From assembly GCF_963675165.1 (NCBI RefSeq), contig NC_087388.1, forward strand, positions 750,800 to 814,799: a stretch of DNA of 64,000 nucleotides. Reading direction: 5' to 3'. The notes below the pieces were generated by a model, which was not told the DNA's origin, did not search any database, and saw only the letters and a program-made list of their open reading frames with translations. A program made the position numbers and the translations under genes. The stretch's first letter is position 1; the number at the start of each line of letters is the position of its first letter. Shown here piece by piece: positions 4,191-47,106 of this stretch. The stretch is from Halichondria panicea. Taxonomy: Eukaryota; Porifera; Demospongiae; Suberitida; Halichondriidae.

Positions 4191-4207
4191 CGTGGCAGTA
4201 GTACAAG

Positions 4208-4822: not shown

Positions 4823-4900
4823 TAGTATAAGAAGAGATGCATCCATTCACAGATCCATTCTTTACAACCTTATGCATGCAATAGAGTGATAGAGTGCAGC

Positions 4901-7900
4901 ATGTATTGGAGTGTGTTTGTCACCGTCCTGCTTGCCTTTTCCTTCAAGGCTACTAATGGTGAGTGAAAGGATTAGCTATATACTAGGCCTATAGCTAATA
5001 CAATATTGCTATACCGTATTATGCGGGTGAAAAACCTTTGCAAATGAACCAAATCAGCAGAAAATTTGATCTTTTGCGATCTATAACTATTGTGTTCTGG
5101 CAAGGATCGTGTGTATTTACTAGTAATAATTTAGGTTTTGCGGGTTTTATTGATGCGAATTGATCAACCCTCGCAAAATTTGCAAATGTTTGATGCTCGC
5201 AAAACGTTCTAGTAATACGGTATTGAGAATGTCACACTAATATTGACTGACTGTGGAAAATTGACTCTTTATATGTACATCACATACATGTTGTACACCT
5301 ATTGTGTATTCAATGTATCGATGCAGGTCAGGTCAAGGACATACTGATTGGTACACTCCCCAACTTCCAACACGGCATAGAAGGGCAGCTGTATCTAAGG
5401 GATACAAAAACACTTGTCATTGAGAACTTCTCCTATGATGGACTCGGAGTAGGTATGTGGGCTGCATGAATCCCCATAGCAAAGATCAGATGCATGCATA
5501 TCAAAGATCATAGCAAAGATCAGATGCATGCATAACAAAGATCATAGCAAAGATCAGATGCATGCATAACAAAGATCATAGCAAAGATCAGAGCATGATT
5601 AGGGGTTGGTAGATTATGCTCAAGATATTACCTATTATGCTACTCTTTTATGCTCAAGTAAACAGCCTATTATTCTTTTCAAATAGCCTATTATTCCCAC
5701 ATTATTCCTCCAAAGCACAACATAGGACCCATGTCGTCACACAAGTAACATCAAACTATAAATAATTGCCATGTGACTCTATCTACTATAATAGAATTGC
5801 AAGGAGATAATTAACCACCAGCACTTCCAAATGTTTATACTATGACTCGTACTGACCTGTATTTGTGTGAAACCTGCCTATTATTCTAATAAATATGCCT
5901 ATTATGCCAGCATAATTCTCAGAGCATGGACAGGATGTATAGCAATGCAAAGATCATAACAAAAGATCATAACAAAAGATCATAGCAAAGATCTAACCTC
6001 GATCCCAGGCCGAGTTTTCGCTTTTATATTTATAACGGTTAGGCGAACAACTAGGCCTGGTACTAGTTGTCTGCGCATGCGTCAAATTTTCATTGTATTT
6101 GTGGTCAGCAAAAATAATTATTTAATAAATCGAAATTTGTACACAGAAAATGCACGGAGTGAGTACACAAAAGATGCACATAGGGAGCTGCTTCACAAGG
6201 GCCTGGGGAGTTGCCAGTTGTGCTGCAGCACGATTACAGTGACCCAGGGCAACTTTAGGATGATTAAATGCCTTCAAATTACATTTCAAAAATATTTAGC
6301 AGGCTGCTGGACTTCTCTGATTCTAGGCCCCAACTCGTAACTCAGTTAAATTTTGCTTAAGAAAACGTAGATTCTCTTGATGCCTCTGAGGTACCCAGCA
6401 ACGCTCGAACGAGCAGGTCATGCATACTCCAGTCCTGTGAGTATAGGACAATATTAAAAGAAACCAAAGACGGTTAAACCCTTACCTCAAACTGTCCAGT
6501 CTCGTCCGTTAGTATAGCCAAGAGGAGCACTGTTGGGATAGCTGGATATTAGCCATTGCTCCTGTACAGAGAAGTACGTGTAGATCTATACATATTAAAT
6601 TTCTCGTATTAAACAGGTTATAGTGTCATTGTCGACAAGCTGAGGATGGCAGCACCAAGTTCTCTAGCTCACACTCTTTACTTGATCCACCATATTAATG
6701 ATGAAACTATAGTCTACCTAGATCTTGCCAAACATGAACAAGACTTGATAGCATATAGGGCCCACACAAAAATATCTGACCTTAACAAGCTTGACAAAGC
6801 TTCTATACCTCTTCCCTTGTTGTTCAGTCTTCAGAATAATGTTTTCTAAGCTTCAGAGAAGAGAGAAGCTTCAACTAAGAGCCATTCCAATTGATTCCAA
6901 TAATGATAAAACGGGAACTGACTTCTAGTACACGATAGTTGTCACGAAAGTGAACGAGAATATCCATTCGTCAGAATCTGACGAACGACTGACGCATGCG
7001 CAGACAACTAGTACCAGGCCTAGTTGTTCGCCTAACCGTTATAAAAGCAAAAACTCGGCCTGGGATCGAGGCTAAGCAAAGATCATGCATGATGCATGCA
7101 TAACAACGATCATAACAAAGATCATAGCAAAGATCAGAGCATGGATCAGAATGCATAGCAAAGATCATGCCTTGGATGTATATAATTATAGCACTAATAG
7201 TCCACTGCGAGTTGTGTGTATATATATATGGAAGTATTATTGTGTTTAAAATAAAAATGAAAAATGTTGTATTTTTGCAACACTGTGTTTTGTTTTGTAT
7301 ACGGTTTTATAATGAGAATTGAGCTTGCATGCAGTGCACAAAATACTTTTAGCTACCGTATAGCGTGTATATTTTGAGGGTATATACATGTACCGCGAAC
7401 ATTTATAATCGCGAATTTAATATCGCATGCATGCATGCATGCTGTAAAAAGGCTGCTATTCCACGAAAATTAAATCTGTGAAAACCTTTCTAAAGGCATT
7501 TCCGCGAAAATTTATACCCTCGAAATAATACCCGCTATACGGTATATAGGCCATTATTGGTTGGACATTATTATCGGTAATTTGGACAAGAATTTTCATA
7601 CACAGTATTTTACAGTGCACTTGGCGTTGCAGCATGCATACATGGCCGTATCTCCTGATCTGGCAACTTTTAACACGTTACATGGAAGATTGAGCACACC
7701 CGCACTGGCTGACCATATGCTATTTTGCTAAGCAGCTTGACATGTTAATTGCATGGAAATTGACCAGTGCATATGGCAGCTGTGCCTCATAAACCTGTGC
7801 CAACATAAACAGTTTTACTTTTGCAAATGCAAGTATTACAAATGGCTATGTATAAATAAAGTCCAAAGTGAAATATCATGCATGCATTTATTTGACCTCT

Positions 7901-10900
7901 ATATACAGACACCTTTCTTTACTACTTCAAGCCTGGCCAGCAGGCTGTGCACGGTCAAGGGATCGTCATTCCTGTGCCGGGTGGAAAGTAAGAAGCACCT
8001 ATATACAATGTATATATACATTCTTTGAGTGCCACAATTGATCCCTTAAAAATTACCTTCCTTCGTATGACTTTTGTGTTATCTGCACAGCCCTGCTGAT
8101 GGTAGCTTTGTGAGAGGACGTCGCTATAGTAGAGAGCAGTTGGTGATTGATTTGCCCGAGGGCACAGATGCGTGTGACATTGGGGAGCTGACCATTTGGT
8201 GTCGACCGTTTGGAACATACTTTTCATCCATCACGCTTAATCATGACATTTTATTTGTGAGTCCTGCATGCAAGTTGTGTAACCAGTACAGCTGTTGTAC
8301 TCTTTTGAAGTGGTTGTGACTGCATGTGAAGTCACGGCACACTCACTTGTATAGGGTTAATATTTGACATGACCATATATGGCTATAATATAGGCACAAT
8401 CATCAGAAATTCTAACCATGCATGCACATTCGCTTCAGTTGCACAATGCATGGAATTGAAGTCACGGCACACTCACTTGTATAGGGTTTAATTATGTGAC
8501 ATGACCATATATGGCTATAATATAGGCATAATCATCAGAAATTCTAACCATGCATGCACGTTTGCTTCAGTTGCACAATGCATGTAATTGACTACACTTG
8601 AATGCAGTTTAGAGCCACTTAACTTGTGGTTTACCATAGAACGCGCTGTATAGTGAGTGCCTATTTTTATAGCTACTATACTATATTCATCTACATGCAC
8701 ATGCAGCGCTGTGATAGACCATAGATCTAGTATTATATCTATGGATAGACCTAGCAAAATACCACAAAACCACCATACAATGTTGCTATGCATGCAACCA
8801 GGCAGGAGTATGCTCCTGATGCAACCAACCTGTGTCCTGAGCCATGCAGTGATGGCTGTAACACGATAATTTTGTACTGTGCTTTGTGGCAAGTTTGAGG
8901 CAAATGGTAATCTGACTTGAGGTTATAATTATAGTGTTACAGTTTACATAAGACCTACTGAAGTGGTTTACTCAGTTGCACTTATCTCAAGTACAATTTA
9001 CCAAAATCCCAAGCGAGCTGCAAAGGGCAGCACCAGAGATCAAAGACATGCACCTTTGAGTTGTGTAATTTATGCAAACCACCAACCTGTATGGGCCATC
9101 TGGCCATCTGGCATATACCCACGCAGGCTCCAGACTGCCCTTAGATGGCCCTTATAATGATCCATCCAAACATTTTTATGGCTGTTATATACACCAGATG
9201 GTACACCCACCCTGCCTTACATCTATAACTGGGAGGCCATATAGATGGCCCTTATAATGATCCATCCAAACATTTTTATGGCTGTTATATACACCAGATG
9301 GTACACCCACCCTGCCTTACATCTATAACTGGGAGGCCATATAGGGTAATTTTCGTTGGCGCAAATTTTCGTATGAACTGCTACCCAATTAAGTATTTGT
9401 ACAGCTCAGGATAGTTACGTCGAACGTACTAGGTAGAATAATTTCTTCTTAGTTTTAATTGCATGTGATGCTCTACAATACGTAATAATTATACAAAAAT
9501 GTCCACCATACGAAATCTCGCTATACGGTATTCTATACTTAAAGCAATTGTAGGTATGTTTGTAGTTGATAAACAGTATACTGAGATCATAATTATATAC
9601 ACAGTACTATTTTGTGTATTTTCACAGGAGGAGCGTGCAGGACCCGATGAAGAATGTCTCATCAAGGTAGGACTGCGTTTAGTATATACTACGTATAATT
9701 ATAATCATAGTCACGGTGCACAAATAAAATGCTGAGTCGATCATTTTAACATATACGTACAATCTGCATGCATACACTAACATTCACTTACTGATATGTG
9801 GTCTCTCCATTACAGGGAAGAGGTTGGTTAGACCCCCAGCGGTTCAGTAGTATTGTGGTAAGCTAAGCTAACTTACCATTATTGCCCTTCTTCCCCCAGT
9901 TCCTTCCACTGATAAGCCATCAGTTGAGACTACTACTAAAGGTTAGTTGACACTCATAGCCATGTGCATAATGATATGTTTCATAATTGCTTCCCCCCGT
10001 AACTCATTCAGAAGAAGCTGTCACTACTGAAGGTGAGATATGCACATTGATCACATAATTATATACATGTATATAGCTTTAATAAACTATATAAGAGTGT
10101 GTCCCTATGCACCCTCACCTTGTATATATAGTGTCTGACATTGAGAGGGTAATCGTACCTCCTGTCCAGGTCCCTGCGATCAGTTGAACTGCCCTTCTTA
10201 CACTACTTGTGAGATGATTCCAGGTGTAGGTACAAATTCATCTATATCCATGTTTCCTTTCTGCCTTCCGTCCTGTGAGCTGGAGAATGGTGGATGTGCT
10301 GAAGACGAGATCTGTTCTCTTGTGGAACAACTTTGCCCTTCTAATGGGCCTTGTCAAACTACTGTGCAGTGCTCTCCTGCAGGTAATCAATTGTTAATGG
10401 AGCTAGAGTTTATAATTATAAGAGTGTCTCCACCACTTACCGTGTCTGACATTGAGAGTGTATTCGTACCTCTGTCCAGGTCCCTGTGATCAGTTGAACT
10501 GCCCTTCTTACACTACTTGTGAGATGATTCCAGGTGTAGGTACAAATTCATCTATATCCATGTTTCCTTTCTGCCTCCCGTCCTGTGAGTTGGAGAATGG
10601 TGGATGTGCTGAGGACGAGGTCTGTTCTCTTGTGGAACAACTTTGCCCTTCTAATGGACCTTGTCCAACTACTGTGCAGTGCTCTCCTGCAGGTAATCGC
10701 TTGTTAATAGAGTTAGTGTAAAAGCTCCTATAAGAGTGTGTCCCCATGCACCCTCACCTTAATTGTATATATAGTGTCTGACATTGAGAGTGTATTCGTA
10801 CCTCTGTCCAGGTCCCTGCGATCAGTTGAACTGTCCCTCTTACACTACTTGTGAGATGATTCCAGGTGTAGGTACAAATTCATCTATGTCCATGTTTCCT

Positions 10901-13900
10901 TTCTGCCTCCCGTCCTGTGAGCTGGAGAATGGTGGATGTGCTGAGGACGAGATCTGTTCTCTTGTGGAACAACTTTGCCCTTCTAATGGACCTTGTCCAA
11001 CTACTGTGCAGTGCTCTCCTGCAGGTAATCAATTGTTAATGGAGCTAGAGTTCATAATTATAAGAGTGTCTCCACCACTTACCGTGTCTGACATTGAGAG
11101 TGTATTCGTACCTCTGTCCAGGTCCCTGTGATCAGTTGAACTGCCCTTCTTACACTACTTGTGAGATGATTCCAGGTGTAGGTACAAATTCATCTATATC
11201 CATGTTTCCTTTCTGCCTCCCGTCCTGTGAGTTGGAGAATGGTGGATGTGCTGAGGACGAGGTCTGTTCTCTTGTGGAACAACTTTGCCCTTCTAATGGA
11301 CCTTGTCCAACTACTGTGCAGTGCTCTCCTGCAGGTAATCGCTTGTTAATAGAGTTAGTGTAAGAGCTCCTATAAGAGTGTGTCCCCCATGCACCCTCAC
11401 CTTAATTGTATATATAGTGTCTGACATTGAGAGTGTATTCGTACCTCTGTCCAGGTCCCTGCGATCAGTTGAACTGTCCTTCTTACACTACTTGTGAGAT
11501 GATTCCAGGTGTAGGTACAAATTCATCTATGTCCATGTTTCCTTTCTGCCTCCCGTCCTGTGAGCTGGAGAATGGTGGATGTGCTGAGGACGAGATCTGT
11601 TCTCTTGTGGAACAACTTTGCCCTTCTAATGGACCTTGTCCAACTACTGTGCAGTGCTCTCCTGCAGGTAATCAATTGTTAATGGAGCTAGAGCTCATAT
11701 AAGAGTGTCTCCACCACTTACCGTGTCTGACATTGAGAGTGTATTCGTACCTCTGTCCAGGTCCCTGCGATCAGTTGAACTGCCCTTCTTACACTACTTG
11801 TGAGATGATTCCAGGTGTAGGTACAAATTCATCTATATCCATGTTTCCTTTCTGCCTTCTGTCCTGTGAGCTGGAGAATGGTGGATGTGCTGAAGACGAG
11901 ATCTGTTCTCTTATGGAACAACTTTGCCCTTCTAATGGACCTTGTCCAACTACTGTGCAGTGCTCTCCTGCAGGTAATCAATTGTTAATGGAGCTATAGA
12001 GCTCATAATTATAAGAGTGTCTCCACCACTTACCATGTCTGACATTGAGAGTGTATTCGTACCTCTGTCCAGGTCCCTGCGATCAGTTGAACTGTCCTTC
12101 TTACACTACTTGTGAGATGATTCCAGGTGTAGGTACAAATTCATCTATATCCATGTTTCCCTTTTGCCTCCCGTCCTGTGAGTTGGAGAATGGTGGATGT
12201 GCTGAGGACGAGGTCTGTTCTCTTGTGCAACAACTTTGCCCTTCTAATGGGCCTTGTCCAACTACTGTGCAGTGCTCTCCTGCAGGTAATCAATTGTTAA
12301 TGGAGCTAGAGTTCATAATTATAAGAGTGTCTCCACCACTTACCATGTCTGACATTGAGAGTGTATTCGTACCTCTGTCCAGGTCCCTGTGATCAGTTGA
12401 ACTGCCCTTCTTACACTACTTGTGAGATGATTCCAGGTGTAGGTACAAATTCATCTATATCCATGTTTCCTTTCTGCCTCCCGTCCTGTGAGTTGGAGAA
12501 TGGTGGATGTGCTGAGGACGAGGTCTGTTCTCTTGTGGAACAACTTTGCCCTTCTAATGGACCTTGTCCAACTACTGTGCAGTGCTCTCCTGCAGGTAAT
12601 CGCTTGTTAATAGAGTTAGTGTAAAAGCTCCTATAAGAGTGTGTCCCCATGCACCCTCACCTTAATTGTATATATAGTGTCTGACATTGAGAGTGTATTC
12701 GTACCTCTGTCCAGGTCCCTGCGATCAGTTGAACTGTCCTTCTTACACTACTTGTGAGATGATTCCAGGTGTAGGTACAAATTCATCTATGTCCATGTTT
12801 CCTTTCTGCCTCCCGTCCTGTGAGCTGGAGAATGGTGGATGTGCTGAGGACGAGATCTGTTCTCTTGTGGAGCAACTTTGCCCTTCTAATGGACCTTGTC
12901 CAACTACTGTGCAGTGCTCTCCTGCAGGTAATCAATTGTTAATGGAGCTAGAGCTCATATAAGAGTGTCTCCACCACTTACCGTGTCTGACATTGAGAGT
13001 GTATTCGTACCTCTGTCCAGGTCCCTGCGATCAGTTGAACTGCCCTTCTTACACTACTTGTGAGATGATTCCAGGTGTAGGTACAAATTCATCTATATCC
13101 ATGTTTCCTTTCTGCCTTCTGTCCTGTGAGCTGGAGAATGGTGGATGTGCTGAAGACGAGATCTGTTCTCTTATGGAACAACTTTGCCCTTCTAATGGAC
13201 CTTGTCCAACTACTGTGCAGTGCTCTCCTGCAGGTAATCAATTGTTAATGGAGCTATAGAGCTCATAATTATAAGAGTGTCTCCACCACTTACCATGTCT
13301 GACATTGAGAGTGTATTCGTACCTCTGTCCAGGTCCCTGCGATCAGTTGAACTGTCCTTCTTACACTACTTGTGAGATGATTCCAGGTGTAGGTACAAAT
13401 TCATCTATATCCATGTTTCCCTTCTGCCTCCCGTCCTGTGAGTTGGAGAATGGTGGATGTGCTGAGGACGAGATCTGTTCTCTTGTGGAACAACTTTGCC
13501 CTTCTAATGGGCCTTGTCCAACTACTGTGCAGTGCTCTCCTGCAGGTAATCAATTGTTAATGGAGCTAGAGTTCATAATTATAAGAGTGTCTCCACCACT
13601 TACCGTGTCTGACATTGAGAGTGTATTCGTACCTCTGTCCAGGTCCCTGTGATCAGTTGAACTGCCCTTCTTACACTACTTGTGAGATGATTCCAGGTGT
13701 AGGTACAAATTCATCTATATCCATGTTTCCTTTCTGCCTCCCGTCCTGTGAGTTGGAGAATGGTGGATGTGCTGAGGACGAGGTCTGTTCTCTTGTGGAA
13801 CAACTTTGCCCTTCTAATGGACCTTGTCCAACTACTGTGCAGTGCTCTCCTGCAGGTAATCGCTTGTTAATAGAGTTAGTGTAAGAGCTCCTATAAGAGT

Positions 13901-15454
13901 GTGTCCCCATGCACCCTCACCTTAATTGTATATATATAATAGTGTCTGACATTGAGAGTGTATTCGTACCTCTGTCTAGGTCCCTGCGATCAGTTGAATT
14001 GTCCTTCTTACACTACTTGTGAGATGATTCCAGGTGTAGGTACAAATTTATCTATATCCATGTTTCCTTTCTGCCTCCCGTCCTGTGAGCTGGAGAATGG
14101 TGGATGTGCTGAGGACGAGATCTGTTCTCTTGTGGAACAACTTTGCCCTTCTAATGGACCTTGTCCAACTACTGTGCAGTGCTCTCCTGCAGGTAATCAA
14201 TTGTTAATGGAGCTAGAGCTCATATAAAAGTGTCTCCACCACTTACCGTGTCTGACATTGAGAGTGTATTCGTACCTCCTGTCCAGGTCCCTGCGATCAG
14301 TTGAACTGCCCTTCTTACACTACTTGTGAGATGATTCCAGGTGTAGGTACAAATTCATCTATAACCATGTTTCCTTTCTGCTTCCCATCCTGTGAGTTGG
14401 AGAATGGTGGATGTGCTGAGGACGAGGTCTGTTCTCTTGTGGATCAACTTTGCCCTTCTAATGGACCTTGTCCCACTACTGTGCAGTGCTCTCCTGCAGG
14501 TAATCTAATAGAGCTACTATTTGCCTTCATATTTTTATTATCTCAGCTATAGGTACTCGATCCTCACATGCATTTATCTTACAGATCCTTGCAGTACATT
14601 TAGATGCCAAAGGGGCTACAGGTGCCAAGTGTACGAGCCAACCAATGAGGCGTACTGTGAGCCAGCATGTGACCTGTTCAATGGCGGGTGTACTACAGGA
14701 ACCTACTGTATTCTTCGCCGGGACCGTGATTGCAATGAGGGGCCGTGTCCATCTCTAAAAAGCTGTTGTTTTTTCCCACGCTGTGACATGCACGTCTGTA
14801 GCGCTAGGGAAACCAGGAGAAGCCCATGCATTATTGAGTGAGAAGCTATAGCCTTACCATCCTCACCCCTTTGATTTGTGTCCCTTGTGGAAATATTTGA
14901 CATTCAGTTTTATTGCTATAGTGTATACATGTATAGTATATTATGTGCATACATTAGAAACATTTCGATACATTAATAATAATGCCTCTCTCAATTCCGC
15001 CACATGCAGTGCAGAGGATTCCCAATGTGATGAAGAGGAGTGTCCATTTACTTACTGTCGTAATTGTTACTTCTCGTCCCAAAATCAGCCATTGCCAGGC
15101 AACTGTGGGACATGTAATGAAAACAGTGTCAATAATAAATGTACTAAAAGATGGGCAACTTGCACCAGAAGAGCACATTTTGCTGCTTATGGACAGGTAA
15201 GATAATACATGCAGTAGAAATGACGTCTCTCTAAAACGGCAATAAAGCGAGAGGCTCCTAAGATTAGTTTTTGTACTGTAATATGACATTGTACTATATA
15301 GCTACTTACATTAGCTAACTACATTAATGTATAAACACACACACACATCACAAGTGTGCACACACAACCTCCCTCCCCACACATGCAGCCATGGCCTAGT
15401 CAGTCTTCTCTAAGGAAGGAGGAGGACTTTCGCTGTCACATACCTCCATGTTAA
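4901..15454 (+). CDS. Skeletor-like secreted protein A1: DM13 plus 14 Cys modules
   Basis: Exons 4901-4958, 5327-5452, 7909-7987, 8091-8256, 9628-9666, 9816-9822 (7 nt), 9900-9941, 10012-10032, fourteen 213-nt exons within 10170-14499, 14585-14837, 15010-15196, 15389-15454. The sum is 4023 nt, about 1341 aa, closing in frame. Residues 1-19 are a signal peptide (MYWSVFVTVLLAFSF...). Residues 20-156 form a DM13 domain (IGTLPNFQHG, LRDTKTLVIENFSYDG, ACDIGELTIWC). A short Thr/Glu linker is followed by 14 ten-Cys modules, one related tail module and a Cys-rich C-terminus ending CHIPPC. No membrane span or GPI signal was seen, so it is probably extracellular matrix. DM13 domains are proposed redox or electron-transfer modules in Skeletor-type proteins. 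Unlike A2 and C it lacks the second DM13, the DOMON and the Skeletor-type C-terminal domain. Substrate and role are unknown. Confidence 0.8.
5011..5223. mobile_element. MITE family 1 copy in A1 intron 1
   Basis: Begins ataccgtatt and ends agtaatacggtat; inner sequence tgaaaaacctttgcaaatga and tgatgctcgc matches the 37660-37876 copy in reverse orientation. Non-coding. Confidence 0.75.
5598..5919. mobile_element. AT-rich insertion, possible hAT-type MITE
   Basis: Flanked by direct repeats cagagcatg (5589-5597 and 5920-5928). The corresponding intron of A2 (about 19200-19215) has one agagcatg and no insert. Subterminal AGATTATGCT / AGAATTATGCT are inverted. An 8-9 bp duplication would fit hAT elements, but the flanks lie in a local repeat, so this is tentative. 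Non-coding. Confidence 0.5.
5997..7071. mobile_element. 1.08-kb DNA transposon with long TIRs
   Basis: Inverted repeats of about 82-88 bp, 5997-6084 and 6990-7071, from CCTCGATCCCAGGCCGAG at the outside to gcgcatgcgtca inside. Flanked by CTAA on both sides (5993-5996, 7072-7075), or TAA if three bases are duplicated. Internal ORFs are short (87 and 67 aa) and resemble no transposase I recognise, so it is probably non-autonomous. Absent from the equivalent intron in A2 and C. A TWA-type target would suggest PIF/Harbinger, but that is only a guess. Confidence 0.75.
7354..7544. mobile_element. MITE family 2 in A1 intron 2
   Basis: Inverted ends TACCGTATAGCG and CGCTATACGGTA with subterminal gagggtata / tataccctc, and internal cgcgaacatttataatcgcg. 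The same element sits in the same intron of A2 (19398-19585) and a decayed version in the next intron of C (about 38989-39175). The A1 and A2 copies therefore predate the duplication. Confidence 0.75.
9143..9342. repeat. 100-bp unit, two tandem copies
   Basis: agatggcccttataatgatc starts at 9143 and again at 9243, and the two units look identical. The corresponding intron in A2 (about 21470-21570) has one diverged unit. Confidence 0.85.
9342..9540. mobile_element. MITE family 3 in A1
   Basis: Starts tagggtaattttcgttgg and ends ctcgctatacggta; inner cagctcaggatagtta is shared with 49632-49793, 50946-51090 and a left-truncated copy at about 21757-21912. The ends resemble family 2 (CTATACGGTA). 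Confidence 0.65.
9816..9822 (+). other. Predicted 7-nt microexon of A1
   Basis: tacag|GGAAGAG|gttgg. The exon before (ends phase 0 at AAG, 9666) and the exon after (9900-9941, needs phase 1 to read VPSTDKPSVETTTK) can only be joined by 3n+1 bases. Seven bases fit, and the same seven are present in A2 (22180-22186) and C (40863-40869). In C the following sequence runs into a stop, which excludes a longer exon. The donor GTTGGT is weak. Confidence 0.45.
10170..14499 (+). repeat. Array of 14 Cys-module exons (A1)
   Basis: Fourteen 213-nt exons, each 71 aa, phase 1-1: 10170-10382, 10480-10692, 10812-11024, 11122-11334, 11455-11667, 11761-11973, 12073-12285, 12383-12595, 12715-12927, 13021-13233, 13333-13545, 13643-13855, 13980-14192, 14287-14499. 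Each has ten Cys: C-x4-C-x5-C-x17-C-x3-C-x6-C-x5-C-x6-C-x5-C-x5-C. Introns are about 90-130 bp and as similar as the exons. Modules 4-7 and 8-11 repeat with a 1260-bp period, marked by CLLSCEL and CSLMEQ in modules 6 and 10. No named domain is recognised with confidence; the CELENGGC part is EGF-like and the CxxxxCPSxxxC start is follistatin-like. Confidence 0.9.
14585..15454 (+). other. Cys-rich C-terminal tail of A1
   Basis: Exon 14585-14837 encodes one more module of the same family (CSTFRC, CQRGYRC, CEPACDLFNGGC). It ends at a GTGAGA donor placed so that unspliced reading would stop after ..SPCIIE. Exon 15010-15196 (CDEEECPFTYCRNC, ending AAYGQ) and 15389-15454 (ending FRCHIPPC, stop TAA) complete it. 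The same three exons close A2 and C. Confidence 0.8.
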
Positions 15455-16876: not shown

Positions 16877-17283
16877 GTACATGGGCTGCATGAATCGCCA
16901 TAGCAAAGAAGATGCTCATGCATGCATAACAAAGATCATTAGCAAAAATCATAATGCAAGTGAAAAACTTTTGTGAATGACCGAGCCAAATGAGCAGAAA
17001 TTTTGACAATTTGCTATTTAACTTTTACGATCTGGAAAGGATCGTGATGTCATACAGTACAAGGTTTTTACGATTATATTTTTACGAAGCGATCAACACT
17101 CGCAAAATTCGCTTATGTTTGATGCTCGCAAACATCCTACATGCAGTAATACAGTACGGTATACCTGTTTGCTGAATTTTGTACACTACCTGTGTGTAAA
17201 AGTGCAGACTACCACTATTGCTACAATGTTTTGCGAGGGAAAAATTATCATGCCCCTCTCCCTTCCTCTCTCTCCCTGTACAG

Positions 17284-18465
17284 GATGTGTACAGCTTCAG
17301 GCTCCCTTGTCACTCGATGCTCTACTATTATCGTCTGCGTCCTCACACTCGCCAGTTCCTACTCACCGTGTCCAAGTACTACGAGACGCACGTGTTTACC
17401 ATGGGGACTAAACTGTATGCTTCCAGTGTGACTCATATTCTGGACCCAGACAAGAAGCTGTTTCACGGGAGGATCATCTCGAGAGACGACTGCTTTGACC
17501 CTCACTCCAAAGCTCTTAGACTCAAGTACGCCTGTGCTGTGTGTGTGTGTGTGTGTGTGTGGTTAGTGTGTGTAAGCGTGGGTGTGTGTGTGTAAGCGCC
17601 GCGGTGTGTGTGTGTGGGGGGGATGTGGATAGAGAGCTTCGGTAGACAGTTACTATAGTAATTCCAAAAGAAGTGCTGACAATTTTTAAATATTTCTGTA
17701 GCTTGTACACTAAGCCACTGATAATTAGATATACCTTTTACCAATACCTTTTACCACCCACACAGGTCTGTGTTCCCGTGTGGCGATGCAATGGTTGCCA
17801 TTATCGACGATCGAGAAGATGTTTGGAGGAACTGTCCTAACCTCATTCACGTTAAGCCGTACGTCTTCTTTGCTGGAACGTCCGACATCAACGCCCCACC
17901 AGGGTCACACCCCTCATGCCCTCACACAAAGAACACCGTTCAACTCAAAGACCAAGAGCAGATTCATATCAAACCACTCATAAAATCTCCCAAAATAACC
18001 ACTCCAGGACAGTGAACTGATTTGAAAGACAGTACTCGCACTAGTCGTGAAGATGATGTATTCGACCAAGACCTGGCACTTGCCGAGAAGACGTCTCAAA
18101 AGAGAATTCCTGAGAGGCAATTGCCTATAGGCTTAGGCTCTGTATCTGACGAGGAGCTAGAGAGGATGAATGCTGAGATAGATGCTGAGATAGACGTGTC
18201 CAGTGTGACCAGTAGTGTGGGCTCTAACGAAGGTGGTGTCTCGAGGTTGGTGGAAGCTATGGACGAGGATGTCTCGCTATCATATGACAAGTCCGCCGGG
18301 AGTAGTCTGATTGGAGAGAATGGTCGTAAACGAAAACACGACGATGTGTCCAGCTCGTCAGATAACAGCCCCCATTCTCTGGGACTACTCGATGAATCAG
18401 TGGATGTGAGTGAGAGCAGCGATGGAGACAGTGGGGACGAACTAGCTAAACTGTTAGGAACATGA
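17284..18465 (+). pseudogene. Truncated duplicate of FCP1 (no active site, no BRCT)
   Basis: Exon 17284-17525 copies FCP1 exon 1795-2036 at the same length; 17766-18465 copies the last exon with an internal deletion of about 1.1 kb that removes the Ser-rich linker, the 17-residue repeats and the BRCT domain. The exon with DLDQT is not duplicated. An in-frame TGA at 18013-18015 (CAG TGA where the parent has CAC CGA) interrupts it; beyond that, the same frame stays open to the original end (DELAKLLGT). It also lacks a promoter and a start. It cannot make an active phosphatase and is most likely a pseudogene. Retention of the acidic tail frame probably reflects recent origin. Confidence 0.88.
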
Positions 18466-18762
18466 TATTATGTAATGCGTTATTATTCCATCGTTATTGT
18501 TGTGTTGTTTGTTATTGTGCAATGTCTGTTTGAAAAAAAATTTTGTTGTTTATAATCCGCGGCTATCAATTGGAACACAGGTAACCCCGCGGTTATAATT
18601 CGGAAAATAGTCGCCTTTCTACCTTCGGGGAATTAGGCGTGGTTTCTGTCTAAGTGAATGCGTGGGGGTATGTGGCAGACAATTTGTACACAAGAGAGAA
18701 TGCATCATTCACAGATCCATTCTAATTCTTTACAACCTTGTGCATGCAATAGAGAGTGCAGA
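18466..18762. promoter_or_regulatory. Upstream region of A2
   Basis: Short intergenic space matching 4011-4207 plus 4823-4900 of the A1 side without the insertion. It contains the conserved ggcgtggtttctgtctaag block (about 18637) and a tccattc..tttacaacct.tgcatgcaa segment just before the ATG at 18763. No obvious TATA box. Confidence 0.4.
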
Positions 18763-36103: not shown

Positions 36104-39100
36104 ATGTATTGGAGTGTATTTGTCACCTTCTTACTTGCCTTTTCCTTCAAGGCTACTAATGGTGAGTGGAAAAGGATTATCAGCTAGGGCTGCCTAACCA
36201 AGCTGTTAATATTGGACTGACTATTGAATTGGCTAGACTGAACTGTTGTGTCTTGATTCTTCATAATTATGTACATAGACTACATGTATACCTAGAACAG
36301 GTGTTTTCAATGTATCAATTGTCTATGTATGCAGGTCAGGTCGAGGACATACTGGTTGGTACGCTCCCCAACTTCCAACACGGCATAGGAGGGCAGCTGT
36401 ATCTAAGGGATACAAAAACACTTGTCATTGAGAACTTCTCCTATGATGGACTCGGAGTAGGTACGTGGGCTGCATGAATCGCCATAGCAAAGAGGATGCT
36501 CATGCATGATGCATGCATAACAAAGATCATAGCAAAGATCACGATGCATGCATAACAAAGAGCATGGATGTATGCAAAGAGCACATGTGCAGCATATAGC
36601 ACTATAATATAGTCCACTGCGAGTTTTTTGTGTATATAATGGATTGTGTTCAGTACTTTCGTTGTATTTTTATGCCTCGAGGCGTAGCCGCACGAGGGAT
36701 ACGGTAAAGCTGACTGTGTGTGTGTGTGTGTATTCCAGCAGTAACTGCTCAACGGTTGCAATGCGACGAAAACTAACAGCTTCTATAGGCTTCTAGCCAC
36801 GTTCTCTTGGATTTTGATTCGTGGATTAGCAAACTAAAGCTTCTTTCTCGAGTTATGGCTAGTTTGACTCACATTGAAGGCTGTTGCAGTCTCTTCAGAA
36901 TCTTTCATAGCATCATCTGTTCGCACAAACTTTCTATTCAACATATGAGTTAGCCTTGCACTAAAGCGCTAGCTTTTTGTTAGCTACAAGACTCAGAAAA
37001 TATCTGTTAAAACAGCTAGCTAGCAGTAGCCATTTGTGAAATTGATCTCTTTGGACACACCCTTTAATTATTCCTGTGGATGTAATGCGCATGCGCGCTC
37101 ATTCCCCATGTGTGAGAAAATAATATCCAAGATCCAGGTCCAGATCCTCCTGGCAGAATCATCTTTGTCTTGAGGGCCTGGTAAGCCACAAAACACTACC
37201 ATATAACAACATAGATAATGCATGTACACAGGTCTTTTCTTCTTAGATATTATATACACTGAACTATACAGATCCTGGAAGAACTCTTTCTTGAGGTCCT
37301 GGTAAACCATGCACATAATACAATAAATAACAAAAATAGATGCATGTAAATAAGTGTTTTCTTCTCAGTGATTTCTTCTCAGTGACTTTATATAGATAAG
37401 CTAACTTTAATATAAAATTCATTTATAGATAACACTCTAATACTTTTGAGGGAAAGCAAAAACATGGCGAGAGGCATTAGCACAGCGCCAGCTTGAACAC
37501 TAGTTACACACTGTGTTTGTGTACATGCATAAATGTAGAATTGTCGGGTAAAGCTTGTTCAAGTAGTCACGTTTGCACAAAATAATTGCTATAGGCCATT
37601 CAAGCCACGTTGGTTTAGTTGGTAATTCAATTTTTGATAGGAAGATTGCAGTGATTTGATACCGTATTACTAGAATGTTTTGCGAGCATTAAACATTTGC
37701 GAAGTTTGCGATTGATCAATTCGCAACAATAAAATCGCAAAACCTAAATTATTACTAGTAAATACACACGATCCTTGCCAGAACGCAATAGTTAGATCGC
37801 AAAGGGTCAAATTTTCTGCTGATTTGGCTCATTCGCAAAGGTTTTTTCACCCGCAAAATATTCTAGTAATACGGTACCAACATCGCATGTAGGGTTTTAT
37901 GATAATGTGCCCTCGTGTGACATCATGGCCCACAAGTATTTTTGTGGGCAAATACACATACTCTATGTAATTTTGGAAATTAGAGCTATGCAAAAAACTA
38001 TTGATTGGTACCCTAAAATGTGACAGAAGGGCCACTTGGTGAAGTGCACTATATACTCAGCACAAAAAATAAATATATATATATCACCTGATCTAGAACG
38101 TTGGAAAGATTGGGCCACACCCAAAGTGATTGATCGGACGCACTGGCTGGCTCGGCATATTCTATATTGCTAGGCCATGCACTTGTGTTATAATTGCTGC
38201 ATGGAAATTGGCCAATTGCCAGCCGTTATTTTATACACTGATTGTTGAGTGTAGTGAAATCAGGATTATAATTATGTGCATGGAACCAATGCAAATGCCT
38301 CATAATTAGTGCTTGCAACAAACCTGTGCCAGCATGCAAATTTTTGTTTTTGTAAGGTTTACCATTACCGCAGTACTTTATTTGATCTCACTTTATACAG
38401 AAACCTTTCTCTACTACTTCAAGCCTGGCCAGGAGGCTGTGCACGGTGAAGGGATCTTCATTCCAGTGCCGGGTGGAAAGTAAGCAAGCAACTGCAAAAT
38501 TATGCATGCAGAGAAGGTTCGACATGCGTGCATTGATGTCATTTGCGGTCAGGTGATAACGTCCAAGGCCAATGCACAGCACTTTTAGTGATTTTTCGTG
38601 CACGCATGTCTGACCTTTGTATGCTCATACTGCACCATATACATTCTTTGATTGCCACAATTGATAACTATATATACACGCAGTTGCCACATAATCACGT
38701 TACCCTCCCTCATATGGCTTTTGTAATTGTGTTATCTGCAGCCCTGCAGATGGTAGCTTTGTGAATAGACGTCGCTATAGTGGAGAGCAGTTGGTGATTG
38801 ATTTGCCTGAGGGCACAGATGCGTGTGACATTGGGGAGCTGACCATTTGGTGTCGACCGTTTCGAGTATACTTTTCATCCATCACGCTTAATCATGACGT
38901 TTTATTTGTGAGTTATGTCATCAGTACAGCTGTTGGTTGGCATGTTTAGTCATGGTTTGATCTCACATACTGTATAGCAGCAGATATGTTTCGAGGGTAT
39001 AAATTTTTGCGGTTTTCGCTGATAAAGCATGTACAGCAGACATTTATATACATGTACCTAATATCGCATGCATGGATACATGCTGCAAAAAGGCTGCTAT

Positions 39101-42100
39101 TCCGTGAATATTAAATCTGCGAAAACCTCTCTAACGGTAATTCTGCAAAAGCTTATACCCTCGAAATATACCCGCTGGTCTTATGGTACCTATTGTTTGT
39201 ATACCTTATCTTGATGACCTCGACCACGAATTCATGATGGTGTAGCTAGCTTACCTATCTTGTTTCTTAACAGTACGTACATAGGACGAATTAATCTCAG
39301 GTATGCATGTCCACAATCAAAATCTGATTTATCTGTAACACAATGCTGTTGTTACAGTACCAGCTGTACCAGAGATAAGGCGCCTTTGAGTGGGTTTATG
39401 TAAATGAACTGTCTGACCACCAACCCCCATCTGGTATATATATGGCTGTTATGCCATCTGCATGGCATATACCCACGGGCTCCAGACTGGCCTCTATGGT
39501 CCATCTTTATGGCTTTTATATCATGCAGATGGCATGCAGGGGCGTACCTAGAAATTTTACGGGAAGGAGGCAACACCCCCGCAAAATGTTTGCCCGGAAA
39601 CCACACTCACTAATTATCGCGTAGAAGTGCATGCAAATGGCAGTAAACTGCTATTTACCTGCTCTTCTTCTCCAACAAAAGAGTGATAGAGCTCATTTTC
39701 TGCTCATTCTATAAATACCTAGTTAGCTAGTTATCCAGAAGTTGGCTAGCCAGAGCTATTAAAAGCTAGTGAGGTGAGTCACATAACACTTGTAGTTTAA
39801 TAGTACAGGAGGCAAGGGCCTCCTCTGCCTTATTGCTAGTTACGCCCCTGGCATGCATGTATATACATGTACATCTAGGCCACAGTGGCGTAGCCAGGAT
39901 TTTAGGAAGGGCCGGGCTCAAATCGGTTGAGCAGAGTCAGAGCAGGCGCTGAATAACACGAAATAAAAAAAAAAAAGGTCATCACCTTTTCCTCAGCATG
40001 CAGTCAGCATGCACATTAGATGGCCCCCTGCCCACATATCCATTGAATGACATCATTCTAGTAACTATGCATGCGTACAGTGCAGAATAAATCGACAGAT
40101 CACAGTGATTCAAGCTAAGTTGGAGTTGATGGAGCACAAAAGGGTGGGGCTCTAGCCCCGTCAGCCCCCATCTGCCTACGTCACTTGCTTTTCAGATGTT
40201 TTACGGCTCTATCCAAGTCGACGAGTATACTAGTTCTAAACCAGCTGTAGTTGCGCTTACACAAATATTATCTTTTCTTAAATCTAAATGTGCTATGTTA
40301 AGCCGATGCAAGATACGTACAACATCCACTAATGATCGTGTATACCATACACCCTTCACCTGGATATCAGGGACACTTGGTGGGGTCATGCATGCATAGG
40401 TTAACTTTTATAACTACCATGTATAGCGCAACATTTTCAAGGCACTTAAATTTCATGCAATGACCTCTAAAAGTATTTCAGGGAACGTGGGTATAGCTAT
40501 CTTACTGGAAGCACTCCCAGGCCACGCCTTTAATCTTTGCACATAAAAGAATTCGTGTAGGATTGCTAACCTACGAAAACAGCGAAAGTTAAGCCCCTAA
40601 CAAATTTCATGCTATACACTTAAAAGCATTTGTAGGTATATATGTAATATTATGTTTGTGGTTGAAAACAATAGTGTCATAGAGCATTTAATACTTGTTA
40701 CTTGAGATGTGGTATTTTCACAGGAGGAGCGTGCAGGGCCCGATGAAGAATGTCTCATCAAGGTAGGACTGCGTTTTAGTGTATACTACGTATAATTATA
40801 GTCACAGTGCACAATCCTATACATGTACACTGTTGACATTTGTGGTTTCCTCTCCATTACAGGGAAGAGGTTGGTTATAATAAGACCCCCAGCTGTTATT
40901 TTTGTTGGAAAGCTAAGCTAACTTACCATCATTGCCCTCCTTCCCCCAGTTCCTTCCACTGATAAGCCATCAGTTGAGACTACTACTAAAGGTTAGTTGA
41001 AGCTCTCAGTATATATATATTTGTACTATGGTTGCACCAAAGATCAAAGGCTTCAGTTGTAGTTTATACTACTTATACAACCTGTCTGACCACAGCCATG
41101 GTATATGGCAGTTATACCCTAGTGTATAACTGCCATATACCATGGCTGTGGTCAAACTACATGTACAGCTAGAACTGAATACAGTATCCCACCTTTGCAA
41201 CAAAATTGACACACTGTTTCAATTAAAACAATGACACACTACTCAATTCAATCAAATATTAGCAATATTAGAGTTAGAGAGAATTCAATACAAAACAGAC
41301 TACTATACTAATGATTTTAGTCAACATAAAAAGAGCCAAGTTCGAGCGATGAATAGTTCCAAAAAGGAGGTAAATTTGGAAGAACTCCGTGATCGTGAAT
41401 CGAACGATACTGGTTTGTTTGTGTTGCTTTTTTTCAACTTTCAATATTGGTTGTCACAACCTGCTTATTACATTGCTGCATGGGACCAGGAGCAGTAAGA
41501 AGGGTCCAGACTGCCAAGTGTTTCTCAGACTAAAGAGACTGCACTGCACTGGGCCAGTACAGTAGGCTTGTGGAATGATATTTTGGGGTACATTTGCACT
41601 CTTTGTAGACAAGTAGCACCAGTGTACTTTCTTGAAGTGCCTTCTATAAAGATGCAGAAACACAGCCTTCACAATTGCTTGCTTGAATCATAGACGCTTG
41701 CTTGAATCAGCCATCGCTTTTTAAAAAAATAGCAAATTCATTGCATAGCTATAGCAACAGTGACGTCAAACAGTAGTTATAAGCATATTCATTGAAGAAG
41801 CATGACAGGAAGTAGCTAAACATAGTAGTACAGTTCTAAACATAGTACAAGCCAGTTAAACTATGGCCTCTCGTGGTATATTTGCTTTACACGCTCGAGT
41901 AATCAGATAAACCAACTCGGCTGCGCCTCGTGGTTTATCAGATTACTCTCGCGTGTAAATCAAATATACCACTCGAGGCCATTGTTTAACTATAACATAT
42001 AGCCATGTGCATAATGATATGCTTCACGATTATACCCCCCCCCCCTGTAACTCATTCAGAAGAAGCTGTCACTACTGAAGGTGAGATGTGCATATTGATC

Positions 42101-45100
42101 ACATTATATATGTTTATTCATTTCCTAGATCTCATTAATGAATTCTCCCCCACAGCACCCCCCACAGGTGTGGAGATTGGAATGTTGCCCCCCAACTCAG
42201 ACTACAGTATTTCAGGAACTCTCTTTATACTGGACACAAAAACACTCCTCATCGAAGACTTCAACTACGATGGCAATGCACCAGGTGAGAGTATTACTTT
42301 AATAGTTTACCTGAATGCATATGAGCTGGTACGTTGTCATGTCAACTGCAGGTGCCTTTCTCTACTACTACCCTCCTGGTCAGGTTATAGACAAGAACGG
42401 TGGAGGTTTTTTCATACCAGTACCCGGTGGAAGGTGAGTCACACTCACATACACTATCTGCATAGCATCTCTGTTGAACATCGATCTTGTATACGTATAG
42501 TTGCCTTACCTTCATATACCATCAGCGTACACATGCAGTGATTGTTATTGTTTCTATTGATCTCCTATATACTCGATCTTGTTGGCAGAGAGAACGGAGG
42601 GTTTAAGATTGGACGTAGCTACTTTAATGAAGAACTCCTGGTCCCACTGCCTGAGGGCGTGGATGCGTGTGACATTGGCACGTTCACAATCTGGTGTATG
42701 CCATTCACTGTCTTCTTTACAGTCCTCCCCTTTCCAACTGAAAGGATATTTGTGAGTGAGGCATGAGGTAGCTTAAGAGGATTTAAAGCATGTATTGAAT
42801 TGTACTTCTATAATAGAGTTATCAGTTCACCAGTTTAAGAGATTAAGTTACCTTTGGAAATTACTTAGTTCAAAATCGTAGTTTTTTTTGTTTGTAGTGG
42901 TAGTGGTGGTGATCATTTACACTCACAGCACATTCACAGCACGCTCCTCTCTCCCCACTATATACTATAGGTGCAAGAAACCGATGAGTGCATTATTCAG
43001 GTAGGTACTCACATGCATGCAGTCTCACACACTGCAGCAAAGAAGTGTATAGCCCCACTGTAGTTGTGTACGTTCACCCTCAGCTTGTCTTTATCGTATC
43101 AAGTTGTACATGACTTACTGTACCCCACCTCTCACTCCCTGTACTCATTCTTCTGCAGCCTGGGTTGGGGACACTAGTACCATTCAAGTGTCCCAATAGA
43201 AGGAGCGTCGGTTCTGCTAGGGATTGTGATTTTGACAACTGTGCTGCCCTTGACGACCAGCTACAGCTGTCCTGGACTGTCAGAAATGATATGCAAATGA
43301 TTGACTTTAGACTCTGCGGCTGTCTAAGTGGTGATCCAAAGTCAGTTGGTGTTAGCTTGACACAAAATTGAATTATACATGTATATTCTTCCGTTCCATA
43401 CAGCCTGAACCAGTACATGGGATTCGGACTCAGTGGCAACACCAACCGGACACACATGATTGGGGCAGACCCTGTCATTACGTGGGTTGACGAGACCACT
43501 GGACCTCAAGCAGTCGACTATTTCCTCACTGGCTACTTCCAGGTATAGGACAACAAGTGTGTGTGTGTGCAGCTAAACCAGTGACAACAATGTGGTATGA
43601 TTGTTGTGGCTTAACTTAATTAGTGTTTTTTCGTGTAACATTTTTCTTTTGAAATCGGATTACAAGTTATATTGTTTGATCTCTCAATCTTTTGCTCCCC
43701 TTCCCCTGCAGTGTCGAGATGGTCGTGGTGCATGCCCTGACGAGGACCATTTCAGTGGTAGCTGCTCCAATGACATTGTCTCTGTGAGTGGATCCAGACA
43801 GGGAGGGCAGCAGTGTGTCATCTACAAACAAAGCTTCTCTACCAGTGAGTGTGTTTATAAAGCTGCTGTAGACAACATTCATGAGGACCAAGTAATGTGT
43901 ATAGCAACTCAATTGTTCCAGATAGTTGACCAATTTTACATTATGGAATAGCTTTCCCTTAATGTGAAGCTGGTAAATATTATTACAGTATGCTTGATTT
44001 GTAGTGTATATGTCTTCATGTGTTTGTGTGCAGATGACAGTACGTGTGATATTCCCATTGACCCTCTCAACATGGAACAGTACATTGTGTGGGGAGTGGG
44101 TGGTCTCGGAGAGACTGCTTTCCAACATTTCAAGAGAGCATCAGGTGAGCTACATGTACTTGTACTCATTGTATATTATCATGATACACTACCCTCTCTC
44201 TCTCTATGCAGCGTCTGACCCTCCCATCCATTTTGGTAGGACTCCAGTTAACATGTGTCCCCGTGAGGTCCAGTGCCGACAGTGCAGTGAACCATTTGAA
44301 GCAGCTGTGATTGAGGCTCTTGAAGACACTATCTTCTCTGTTAGCATAGGACCCTCTGGTGCTGACAGAGGCTATGAGGCCATTACTGGTGAGAGCTAGT
44401 GCATGAGATACAGTTTAGTTAGTATCTGTATATAGTGTTACGGCTACTTATTTGAGAGCATTGCTTATAGTGGCATGCAGCAGGCATGTAGTTAAATAGC
44501 TCTAGAGTACATGTAAGTGGAGAAACTGTTCAGTATACAAAGCTCATATTTACACTTCACTCTAGCAGAAAATGTATGTGGCAGATGCTGTTAATTTTCT
44601 GTTTTGTCATTAGATTTTTAGACTTTCTCATCTAGGCCTATACTGCCCTCCCTCGCACAGGTCAAGTGGGATGGGGCATTGCTTACTACATCAATAGCAC
44701 CTTGGTACCTGAGCTGGTGGTACAGAGAGGCCAGGCCTACGTGTTCATTGTAGAGGCAGGGAATAATCCTGACAACCCAGCCAATTATCACCCCTTCTAC
44801 ATCACTGATGATATTCACGGGAGTCGAGTGTTCAAAACACCTGAAGAGAAGATGGTGAATATATTATACATGCCATGACTCGTATTTATTAATTTAAATT
44901 TTTTTCAGGCTGAGACTGTATTTGCTGGTTTCGATGGTGACAACGTTACTGCAGGTATGATTGCATGCATGTGGGTACGTAGTGGAAGTTTAAACTTTGA
45001 TCACCTTCAATCTATTATTCTCCCGTACAGCTGGTCGACTTTGTGCATGCAGAGAGGGTGCCGAGGCTGCCAGGGTGAGAGAGAGTTGTGGGAGTCGCCA

Positions 45101-47106
45101 GGAATACGAGGAAAGTCAAGAGTGCGGCTGTGAAGAAGGGGGAGCAGCCATTCTAATTTGGATCCCTGACAAAGACACTCCAGACATAGTCTACTATCAG
45201 GTGTGGGGGGCTAGGGCTATAGAGAGGCCAACGTTGAAGGATGAGTAATAGAAGTTGCAATTTGTAGGCTCTAGGAGTCTCAGGGCTCTTTTACATGGAT
45301 GTACTTGTTAGTTTTTAACGGTCCCTAATAGTTTGGTGTTTGTTGTATCTATACATGTACGTGTGTGTATATATAGATCTCATGAACTGTATATACATTG
45401 ACTGACATCATCATTGTTTATCTCTACAGTGTGCCATTCACCTCAATCTGGGATGGAGGATCCGTGTACAAGACGCCCCAGGTAGATATAGGCACATTGA
45501 CCACATAGCTTACATGTATGTGAACTACAATAATAGTGAACATAACTCTAATTTCCCTGTCCAGATCCCTGCGACGAGTTGAGCTGTCCCTCCCACGCTA
45601 CTTGTGAGACGTATACAGATCCATTAGGTGGATCAGATGCTGCCTTCTGCCGCCCGTCCTGTGAGTTGGAGAATGGTGGTTGTGCTGAGGACGAGGTCTG
45701 TTCTCTTGTGGAACAAACTAATTGCCTTGCTGATGGACCCTGTCCACCTACTGTGCAGTGCTCTCCTCCAGGTAATCTAATAGAGCTACTATATACCTTC
45801 ATATTTCTGTCATCTCAGCTATAGGTACCCGTTGCTCACATGCAATTATCTTACAGATCCTTGCAGTACATTTAGATGCCGAAGGGGCTACAGGTGTCAA
45901 GTGTACGAGCCGACCAATGAGGCGTACTGTGAGCCAGCATGTGACCTGTTTAATGGCGGGTGTACTACGGGAACCTACTGCATTCTTCGCCAAGATCGCA
46001 ATTGCAGTGAGGGCCCGTGTCCATCTCTAAAGAGCTGTTGTTTTTTCCCGCGCTGTGACATGCACGTCTGTAGCGCCAAGGAGAACAGGAGAAGCCCATG
46101 CATTATTGAGTGAGAAGAAAATATCCATATTATACACCATAGCCCTATACCCACCCTCCCCCCTTTGTGTCGCTCGTTTAAACAAGGGAATGAATATTTC
46201 ATATTCAGCCATACTAATAATAGTACCAAGAATAGTACTCTTGATAGCACCCATAGAACTTGTACATTTAGTAGTATAACAATTACGGGTAATATAGTAT
46301 GGCTAAAAGTGCAATATGGTACGCCCCGTGCAATTAGTAACCTTGCCATTGCTTGCATGCATGCATGCTACTCGTGCTATTAATCCCTTATTGCACGAGT
46401 AACCATACTATTGATTTTTAATCGTGTATGATGAAGTTCTCATTAACATTTTCAGTCGCGTCTGTTATTCGAAAACAATACGTTAATTGTCATTGATTGC
46501 ACGCTGTCAACGACGACGTGCAATTATTGGACTGGATGTGATACGGGATTAATTGCTGTACACTCTGGACCAGTCACTATAATAGCACATTATAATAATT
46601 ATTATAATAATTTATACGTTATATACAGACCTTAATTAATAATAATGCCTCTCTCAATTCCGCCACATGCAGTGCAGAGGATTCCCAATGTGATGAAGAG
46701 GAGTGTCCATTTACTTACTGTCGTAATTGTTACTTCTCGTCCCAAAATCAGCCATTGCCAGGCAACTGTGGGACATGTAGTGAACACGATATCTTTAATA
46801 AATGTACTCAAAGATGGGCAACTTGCACCAGAAGAGCACATTTAGCTGCTTATGGACAGGTAAGATATACAGTAGAATTAAAGATGATCTCTCTAGAAAA
46901 GACAAGGGATCGAGGCTCTATTACTTGTTTTCATACTGTATTGTACGTACCATTAACTGCATGGTCATTATTATTAACCCCACCACCCACCCCACACACA
47001 CACACCCACCCACCCCACACACACACACACATAGGCATGGCCTCGTCAGTCTCTAAGGAAAGAGGAGGATTTTCGCTGTCACATACTTCCATGTCCATCA
47101 CTCTGA
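36104..47106 (+). CDS. Skeletor-like secreted protein C: DM13-DM13-DOMON with one Cys module
   Basis: Exons 36104-36161, 36335-36460, 38401-38479, 38742-38907, 40724-40762, 40863-40869, 40950-40991, 42060-42080, 42156-42284, 42352-42433, 42589-42751, 42971-43000, 43159-43350, 43414-43542, 43712-43844, 44034-44144, 44212-44388, 44661-44854, 44909-44954, 45031-45200, 45430-45481, 45565-45771, 45857-46109, 46673-46859, 47035-47106. The sum with stop is about 2865 nt, 954 aa, in frame. Signal peptide 1-19; DM13 20-156 and 180-314; DOMON 315-421; Skeletor-type domain to about 715; one ten-Cys module, the tail module and a Cys-rich end (LPCPSL, longer than in A1/A2). This is probably closest to the ancestral layout. 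An in-frame ATG 12 nt upstream (36092) exists but is not conserved. Predicted extracellular; biochemical role unknown. Confidence 0.82.
37660..37876. mobile_element. MITE family 1 copy in C intron 2
   Basis: Well-preserved inverted ends accgtattactagaatgttt and its complement tattctagtaatacggt, with gcgagcattaaac inside. Confidence 0.8.
39538..39848. mobile_element. hAT-like MITE in C
   Basis: Ends AGGGGCGTACCTAG and CTAGTTACGCCCC, flanked by TGGCATGC at 39530-39537 and 39849-39856, an 8-bp target duplication typical of hAT. A related element with ends CAGTGGCGTAGCCAGG and CTACGTCACTTG lies at about 39883-40187. Neither codes for a transposase. Confidence 0.7.
41088..41153. repeat. Perfect hairpin, 29-bp arms
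   Basis: gaccacagccatggtatatg continuing to gttata, an 8-nt loop, then the exact complement. It sits in the C intron between the VPSTDK and EEAVTTE exons. Confidence 0.9.
41854..41991. repeat. 138-bp near-perfect inverted repeat
   Basis: Arms of about 65 bp starting agttaaactatggcctc and ending gaggccattgtttaact, with ctcgtggtatatttg inside. Same intron as the hairpin at 41088. Probably a hairpin-type MITE. Confidence 0.8.

Follow-up and report, generated by a model that had tools for sequence, protein, structure and literature searches.

Insect Knickkopf (Knk) proteins carry two DM13 domains and one DOMON domain and, according to the available part of the published account (PMC4140639), protect and order chitin; TcKnk is predicted to be anchored by glycosylphosphatidylinositol (GPI) and binds colloidal chitin, Knk3 is the ortholog of Drosophila Skeletor, and the functions of the DM13 and DOMON domains are called unclear. 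As far as the available parts of two further sources go, a protein with a DOMON domain is listed for the skeleton matrix of a coralline sponge (PMC4633127), and DOMON transcripts of a coral have been classed as matrix or adhesion (PMC3204972). Here, we analyzed a 64,000-nucleotide stretch of the genome of the sponge Halichondria panicea (NC_087388.1; C12:750800-814799, hereafter the window), in which three tandem genes, A1, A2 and C, all on the plus strand, combine DM13 domains, and in A2 and C also a DOMON domain, with modules holding ten Cys each.

We read this locus, with a probability of roughly 0.6, as a tandem family of secreted Knickkopf/Skeletor-type proteins in which a polysaccharide-binding head would be joined to a disulfide-stiffened matrix rod, array length being given by module copy number. 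What appears to be new is a head of this type carrying an array of undescribed ten-Cys modules. Among the matches listed from the open-licence literature on DM13, DOMON, Knickkopf and Skeletor, none describes Cys-module arrays on a DM13/DOMON protein, in agreement with an earlier sequence-only reading of this DNA, which knew of no such fusion; the architecture may already be present, unnamed, in the databases.

Three tandem genes with a Knickkopf/Skeletor-type head and a common tail

Exons were rebuilt one by one on C, and alignment was then used to carry them over to A1, to A2 and to D, a further gene of this type found 1.9 Mb away (C12:2.737-2.750 Mb, L027 and L028), in which the ends of exons a4, lk1, lk2 and CU4 and of the terminal module were placed by hand. 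Splicing was taken from sequence alone, and the array copy numbers are those of the assembly as given. The spliced models are open with a single terminal stop, and comprise 1333 amino acids (aa) in 24 exons for A1 (4901..15454), 2613 aa in 48 exons for A2 (18763..35349) and 946 aa in 24 exons for C (36104..47106), with 167, 299 and 59 Cys, respectively. D has 12 modules; its head keeps an open frame for 709 aa and begins with the exons known from the window genes; exon phases agree along the A1, A2 and C models and along the D head.

The full order is a signal peptide (assigned by eye), DM13, Thr-rich linkers, a second DM13, DOMON, a C-terminal head domain, the modules, a terminal module and the T2 and T3 domains. 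In C, the signal peptide is followed by the first DM13 (36335-40762), linkers (40967-40991 and 42060-42080), the second DM13 (42156-43000), the DOMON region (43159-44388), the C-terminal head domain as an At5g54830-like region (44661-45481), one module (45565-45771), the terminal module (45857-46109), T2 (46673-46859) and T3 with the stop (47035-47106). A2 has the same series, with a signal peptide, first DM13 (18994-22041), linkers (22280-22395), second DM13 (23082-23938), DOMON region (24082-25553), At5g54830-like region (25694-27254), 23 modules (27334-34429), terminal module (34517-34769), T2 (34922-35108) and T3 (35287-35349), and has two extra modules between linkers and second DM13 (22512-22709 and 22799-23020). 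A1 passes from its signal peptide (4901-4958), first DM13 in four exons (5327-9666) and linkers (9917-9941 and 10012-10032) to 14 modules (10170-14499), the terminal module (14585-14837), T2 (15010-15196) and T3 with the stop (15389-15454).

Pfam profiles recovered two DM13 domains (E 5.2e-25), DOMON (1.7e-13) and the At5g54830-like domain (3.8e-11) in spliced C (an 861-aa model without T2 and T3), the same set in the first 848 aa of A2 (2.5e-26, 1.1e-14 and 5.4e-13, respectively), and two DM13, DOMON (1.6e-15) and At5g54830-like domains in the D head. Two DM13 stretches, each above the Pfam cut-off, were present in A2, C and D and only one in A1 (E 2e-12, in a model version with 2 of the 14 modules); when the A1 unit was searched by tblastn with the 536-aa core, A1's own first DM13 alone was matched and no DOMON was found. 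The second DM13-DOMON stretch had no match to the PDB up to E 1. These results sustain the layout proposed in the sequence-only reading, namely three genes with signal peptide, first DM13, linkers and tail in common, DM13 exons joined to the arrays, DOMON in A2 and C, and none in A1; in the open models the joining is in conserved phase. The limits given in that reading, 4901 and 47106, coincide with the A1 start codon and the C stop codon.

The tail common to A1, A2 and C consists of three exons, one each for the terminal module, T2 and T3. The terminal module exon contains a TGA that was considered as a stop and rejected, since it overlaps a donor (GA/gtgaga or AA/gtgaga) which all four genes, D included, conserve and which leads in phase to T2; T2 leads in phase to T3 in A1, A2 and C. 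The three C-termini thus modelled end in a Cys-rich domain and then the short polar T3 (by eye), and no GPI anchor or transmembrane segment was seen in them.

An extra linker exon, lk0 (e.g. at 40863), was likewise rejected as a constitutive exon, as its frame is interrupted by stops in both C and D and its length is not conserved modulo three. Stretches of this type lie after the first DM13 at 40863-40908, 9816-9857 and 22180-22220 of the window and at 7679-7727 of L027; they are conserved, with an acceptor, and three of the four copies have a donor. Such a stretch may be an alternative last exon yielding a DM13-only protein; a 5' transcript with DM13 only is described for TcKnk3 in the available part of PMC4140639.

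With the insect Knickkopf family, as far as it is described there, the genes share the signal peptide, two N-terminal DM13 domains and a central DOMON, and may share the conserved C-terminal region, A1 differing from this layout in having the first DM13 only. In contrast with the sponge genes, TcKnk and TcKnk3-FL-2 have a predicted GPI end and TcKnk2 a transmembrane segment, and the available part of the account mentions no ten-Cys modules for Knk proteins (PMC4140639). The At5g54830-like domain of A2, C and D aligns with two module-less paralogs, and the residues that do not vary across the five sequences include His44, Cys85, Cys138 and His141.

Ten-Cys modules, array history and selection

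A scan of the window for the ten-Cys pattern returned 43 matches: 14 in A1, 2 + 23 in A2, one in C, and three diverged terminal modules, one per gene. Together with the exon borders, this bears out the counts of 14, 2 + 23 and 1 given earlier. Each module is a single exon holding ten Cys. Without exception, the 40 exons are bordered by AG and GT, measure 198-222 nt in multiples of three and are of phase 1-1, and their matched stretches contain no stop. Sixteen diverse modules, taken from the window, D and a region on C1 described below, share 16 invariant columns, including an NGGC motif. Their best sub-threshold Pfam scores were 18.1 bits for TILa (cut-off 27), 16.7 for EGF_3 (28.5) and 16.5 for FOLN (21.1). 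EGF_3 matched the NGGC second half in 7 of the 16, and FOLN matched three, every one from the C1 region; TILa and FOLN matches were confined to C1 or D modules, with none in window modules. The likeness to FOLN (follistatin/osteonectin) and EGF_3 is weak, and differs from the present case, in which ten Cys fall in one exon. No Pfam match was found for the terminal module, T2 or T3 up to E 5. On these comparisons, we regard the ten-Cys module as an apparently undescribed one.

The A1 array (10170..14499) consists of 14 near-identical modules with a higher-order period of four: at a shift of 4, exon identity is 0.981 and intron identity 0.944 (the former computed without gaps and the latter with gaps, so that their difference is not used as evidence), and exons are 95-100% identical among copies. 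The A2 array (27334..34429) comprises 23 modules which, ordered by identity, read abcdef abcdef (a/b)cdef abcde z. Its module 15 (31082..31285) is an in-frame a/b chimera, in which all informative sites of the first half are of type a and those of the second half of type b. The intron preceding it has the same sequence as those preceding the type a modules 9 and 20, and the one that follows agrees fully with the intron following module 10 and at 98% with that following module 21; the switch within the exon, together with the matching introns on either side, indicates one unequal crossover inside the exon. The higher-order repeats and the chimera support the earlier proposal that array length changes by exon duplication.

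For the second part of that proposal, that the DOMON cassette is varied in the same way, the presence or absence of the cassette is best read as a deletion. Between the linker and module 1 of A1 lies a hybrid intron of 137 bp (10033..10169), the 5' part of which matches the linker introns of A2 (1-54, 74%) and C (1-42, 81%), and of which positions 58-137 are 88% identical to introns before A2 type-d modules and 90% identical to the A1 intron before module 3. Since the full head is present in C, A2 and D, it is simplest to suppose that a deletion between introns of equal phase took the second DM13, the DOMON and the At5g54830-like region from A1; the hybrid intron would be its scar.

For the single module of C, the upstream intron resembles the A2 intron before module 3 (0.73) and the downstream intron those of the last module of A2 (0.93) and of A1 (0.89), and the exon resembles type a at first and then d or p2; this would fit an array that collapsed as well as an ancestor with a single module. 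Self-comparison of the window resolved three duplication units, ~1407-15541, ~16955-35458 and ~36095-47207; the gene copies are segmental duplicates.

Among the window heads, dS is 0.08-0.14, and against D it is 0.35-0.46, the D head being 18-30% different from them. Head dN/dS was 0.19, 0.29, 0.35 and 0.52 in four comparisons among window copies and 0.27-0.41 in five against D, and that of the terminal module was 0.06-0.21 in three; judged by these ratios, both head and terminal module are under purifying selection. The description of the family as fast-evolving is therefore apt for copy number and does not extend to the head or the terminal module. For the modules, 11 representatives were compared in 55 pairs, with two types set after the identities had been seen; within each type, dN/dS was 0.19-0.66 in all 20 comparisons.

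Relatives elsewhere in the genome and flanking genes

Genome-wide searches covered the sponge's own genome (131 Mb, 39 contigs). A module query (tblastn, E ≤0.001) gave 64 matches, 42 in the window (2 terminal), 13 in D (1 terminal) and 9 at C1:14.75-14.79 Mb; with a C1 module as second query, 69 matches were obtained at E ≤0.01, adding three at C1:6.42 Mb and a weak one on C10. Those three, at C1:6415865, 6422244 and 6428626, score equally and are spaced ~6.4 kb apart, possibly a further tandem family.

The region at C1:14.75-14.79 Mb resembles the window in its ten-Cys modules and T2 domain and differs in that its modules are shorter and that neither DM13 nor the DOMON of C had a match on C1. 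At C1:14.78 Mb, a module and a Kunitz domain (2.5e-20) lie in one open frame on an unspliced reading, with TIL (8.7e-9) and VWC domains in neighbouring frames of the same strand. T2 had 14 genome matches, with L032 394-783 and others on C12 and C3 among them: the three window genes, D, four at C1:14.75-14.79 Mb (38-41% identical to window T2) and six elsewhere; one of these six (L067) lies behind a Kunitz-like exon, as judged by eye. T2 has the look of a terminal domain of secreted proteins that has not been described before, and the occurrence of modules and a related terminal domain beside Kunitz, VWC and TIL domains suggests a mobile, secreted cassette shared by secreted proteins of two kinds.

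Nine places in the genome matched the first exon of the conserved C-terminal head domain, seven on C12, of which three are A2, C and D, and two on C16. Among these nine, module matches adjoin only A2, C and D, and they also occur in A1, which is without this head domain. Two module-less paralogs were read, at C12:934k (L066) and C12:499k (L025), the copies at 325k, 332k and on C16 being left out. In the C12:934k paralog, the head is followed shortly by a terminal hydrophobic stretch resembling a GPI signal (unspliced, by eye), at the point where the arrays begin in the window genes. At C12:325-332k, two equal-scoring DM13/DOMON-family matches lie ~7 kb apart on opposite strands, possibly a recent inverted duplication, and at C16:5576585-5593474 short stretches at two places are 81-87% identical to the DOMON and head regions of C.

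Within the window, duplication units 1 and 2 also include part of an FCP1-type gene, namely its 3' end. Unit 1 starts on the left with the 3' part of an FCP1-type C-terminal domain (CTD) phosphatase gene with NIF and BRCT domains (1407..4198, plus strand), and at the left end of unit 2, between A1 and A2, a truncated copy (16955..18678, plus strand) without the stretch matching 2394-3492, where the BRCT domain sits; it is probably a pseudogene brought along by segmental duplication. Further downstream, the minus strand carries an ankyrin repeat (52218-52538; E 1.1e-5) and the plus strand an RPGRIP1-type gene (60122-63038; C2-C2_1, E 6e-11; RPGR1_C, E 3.4e-11).

Chitin synthases are encoded elsewhere in the genome: Chitin_synth_2 matches were found at four places, with the EDR and QRRRW motifs in both of those read. 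A run of papain-family gene copies lies at C8:493-521k (L044, L045, L047-L051), that in L048 having GSSW, with Ser replacing the Cys of the GSCW motif; the Gly-Ala-Ser-Tyr form of silicatein occurred in no motif match among the 30 of 77 cysteine protease family matches examined.

A proposed matrix protein of variable length and its alternatives

According to our preferred reading, the head would bind a matrix polysaccharide, probably chitin, in line with TcKnk and with the chitin synthases of this genome, and the phase 1-1 array of ten-Cys modules and the conserved Cys-rich terminal domain would stand where such proteins usually have a C-terminal membrane anchor. The array would act as a disulfide-stiffened rod building the protein into the extracellular matrix, with module copy number setting rod length, and A1 would be a derived form from which second DM13, DOMON and the end of the head were deleted.

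A number of observations weigh against this reading. As regards module fold, none of the 16 modules scored above any Pfam cut-off, and the best PDB profile match of the module was chicken CREMP (PMC3068167; PDB 9pgb) at E 0.021, which is not significant, followed by follistatin at 0.54. CREMP resembles the arrays in its long runs of near-identical Cys-rich modules with a/b patterns, and its C-X4-C-X5-C pattern is resembled by the first half of the ten-Cys module; its modules have 4 Cys (C-X4-C-X5-C-X8-C) compared to ten here, and no DM13/DOMON head is mentioned in the available part of the source, which places CREMP arrays in the fibrous egg membrane (PMC3068167). We use CREMP as a working analogy and make no claim of membership. 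In the C-terminal head domain, Cys138, His141 and His44 resemble copper ligands; a five-sequence profile of this domain returned no cupredoxin from the PDB up to E 10, so that neither a cupredoxin identity nor copper binding is supported by sequence search. Module dN/dS rose to 0.43-1.06 in the 25 comparisons between types and was 0.58-1.01 in the 10 comparisons with module p2, which fits neither type, so the constraint on the array is weaker than that on the head. Further, the module-less paralog at C12:499k seems, by eye, to run into other, partly mucin-like sequence in place of a GPI tail, so that loss of the anchor would not be a clean one-step story. Finally, introns within the A1 array are a second match for the 3' half of the A1 hybrid intron, and the donor of that half is therefore not fixed.

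An unlikely explanation is that the modules are multi-headed protease-inhibitor or antimicrobial units, which the DM13/DOMON head only targets to surface or matrix. This would account for the frame shared by module and Kunitz domain on C1, with TIL and VWC nearby, and for the Kunitz-like exon before the related terminal domain at L067; of the 16 modules, three match TILa weakly (best 0.0029) and one FXa_inhibition (0.027), in D or C1 only, which points the same way. Multi-headed inhibitors, however, show loop diversification, whereas the array copies here are near-identical, at 95-100% for the A1 exons, and the similarity to EGF_3, FOLN and CREMP is about equal to that to TILa.

Less probable still is that unequal crossing-over produced the arrays as a neutral side effect, with only head and terminal domain mattering and length irrelevant. 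Copy numbers of 1, 12, 14 and 25 among the paralogs, the near-identical higher-order repeats and the between-type dN/dS of up to 1.06 are what such a process could leave; yet frame, all ten Cys and splice sites are kept in 40 of 40 modules, and the within-type ratios stay below 1 without exception.

We give little credence to a self-curing matrix, in which the DM13-DOMON head would be a redox centre oxidising the Cys modules in its own tail as well as those in the DOMON-less A1, array length setting cross-link density; on this account C would be mostly head, A2 head plus substrate and A1 mostly substrate. That A1, or all arrays, are separate genes or assembly artefacts unspliced to the DM13 exons is scarcely credible: long near-identical repeats are hard to assemble and the splicing is read from the genome, but the intron joining linker and module 1 of A1 begins like the linker introns of A2 and C, phases agree throughout the models and the D head, and a chimeric module with matching flanking introns is what recombination gives.

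DM13/DOMON proteins are known genetically in insect cuticle, and the present locus offers the same head with 1, 12 and 25 modules, together with a DOMON-less paralog with 14, as a natural length and domain series for dissecting the parts. Array growth and loss of the cassette, as we read it, are legible at a single locus in which intron scars have been kept. If the matrix reading is true, a Knk-type protein would here have been turned from a cell-anchored into a matrix-built one by exon shuffling.

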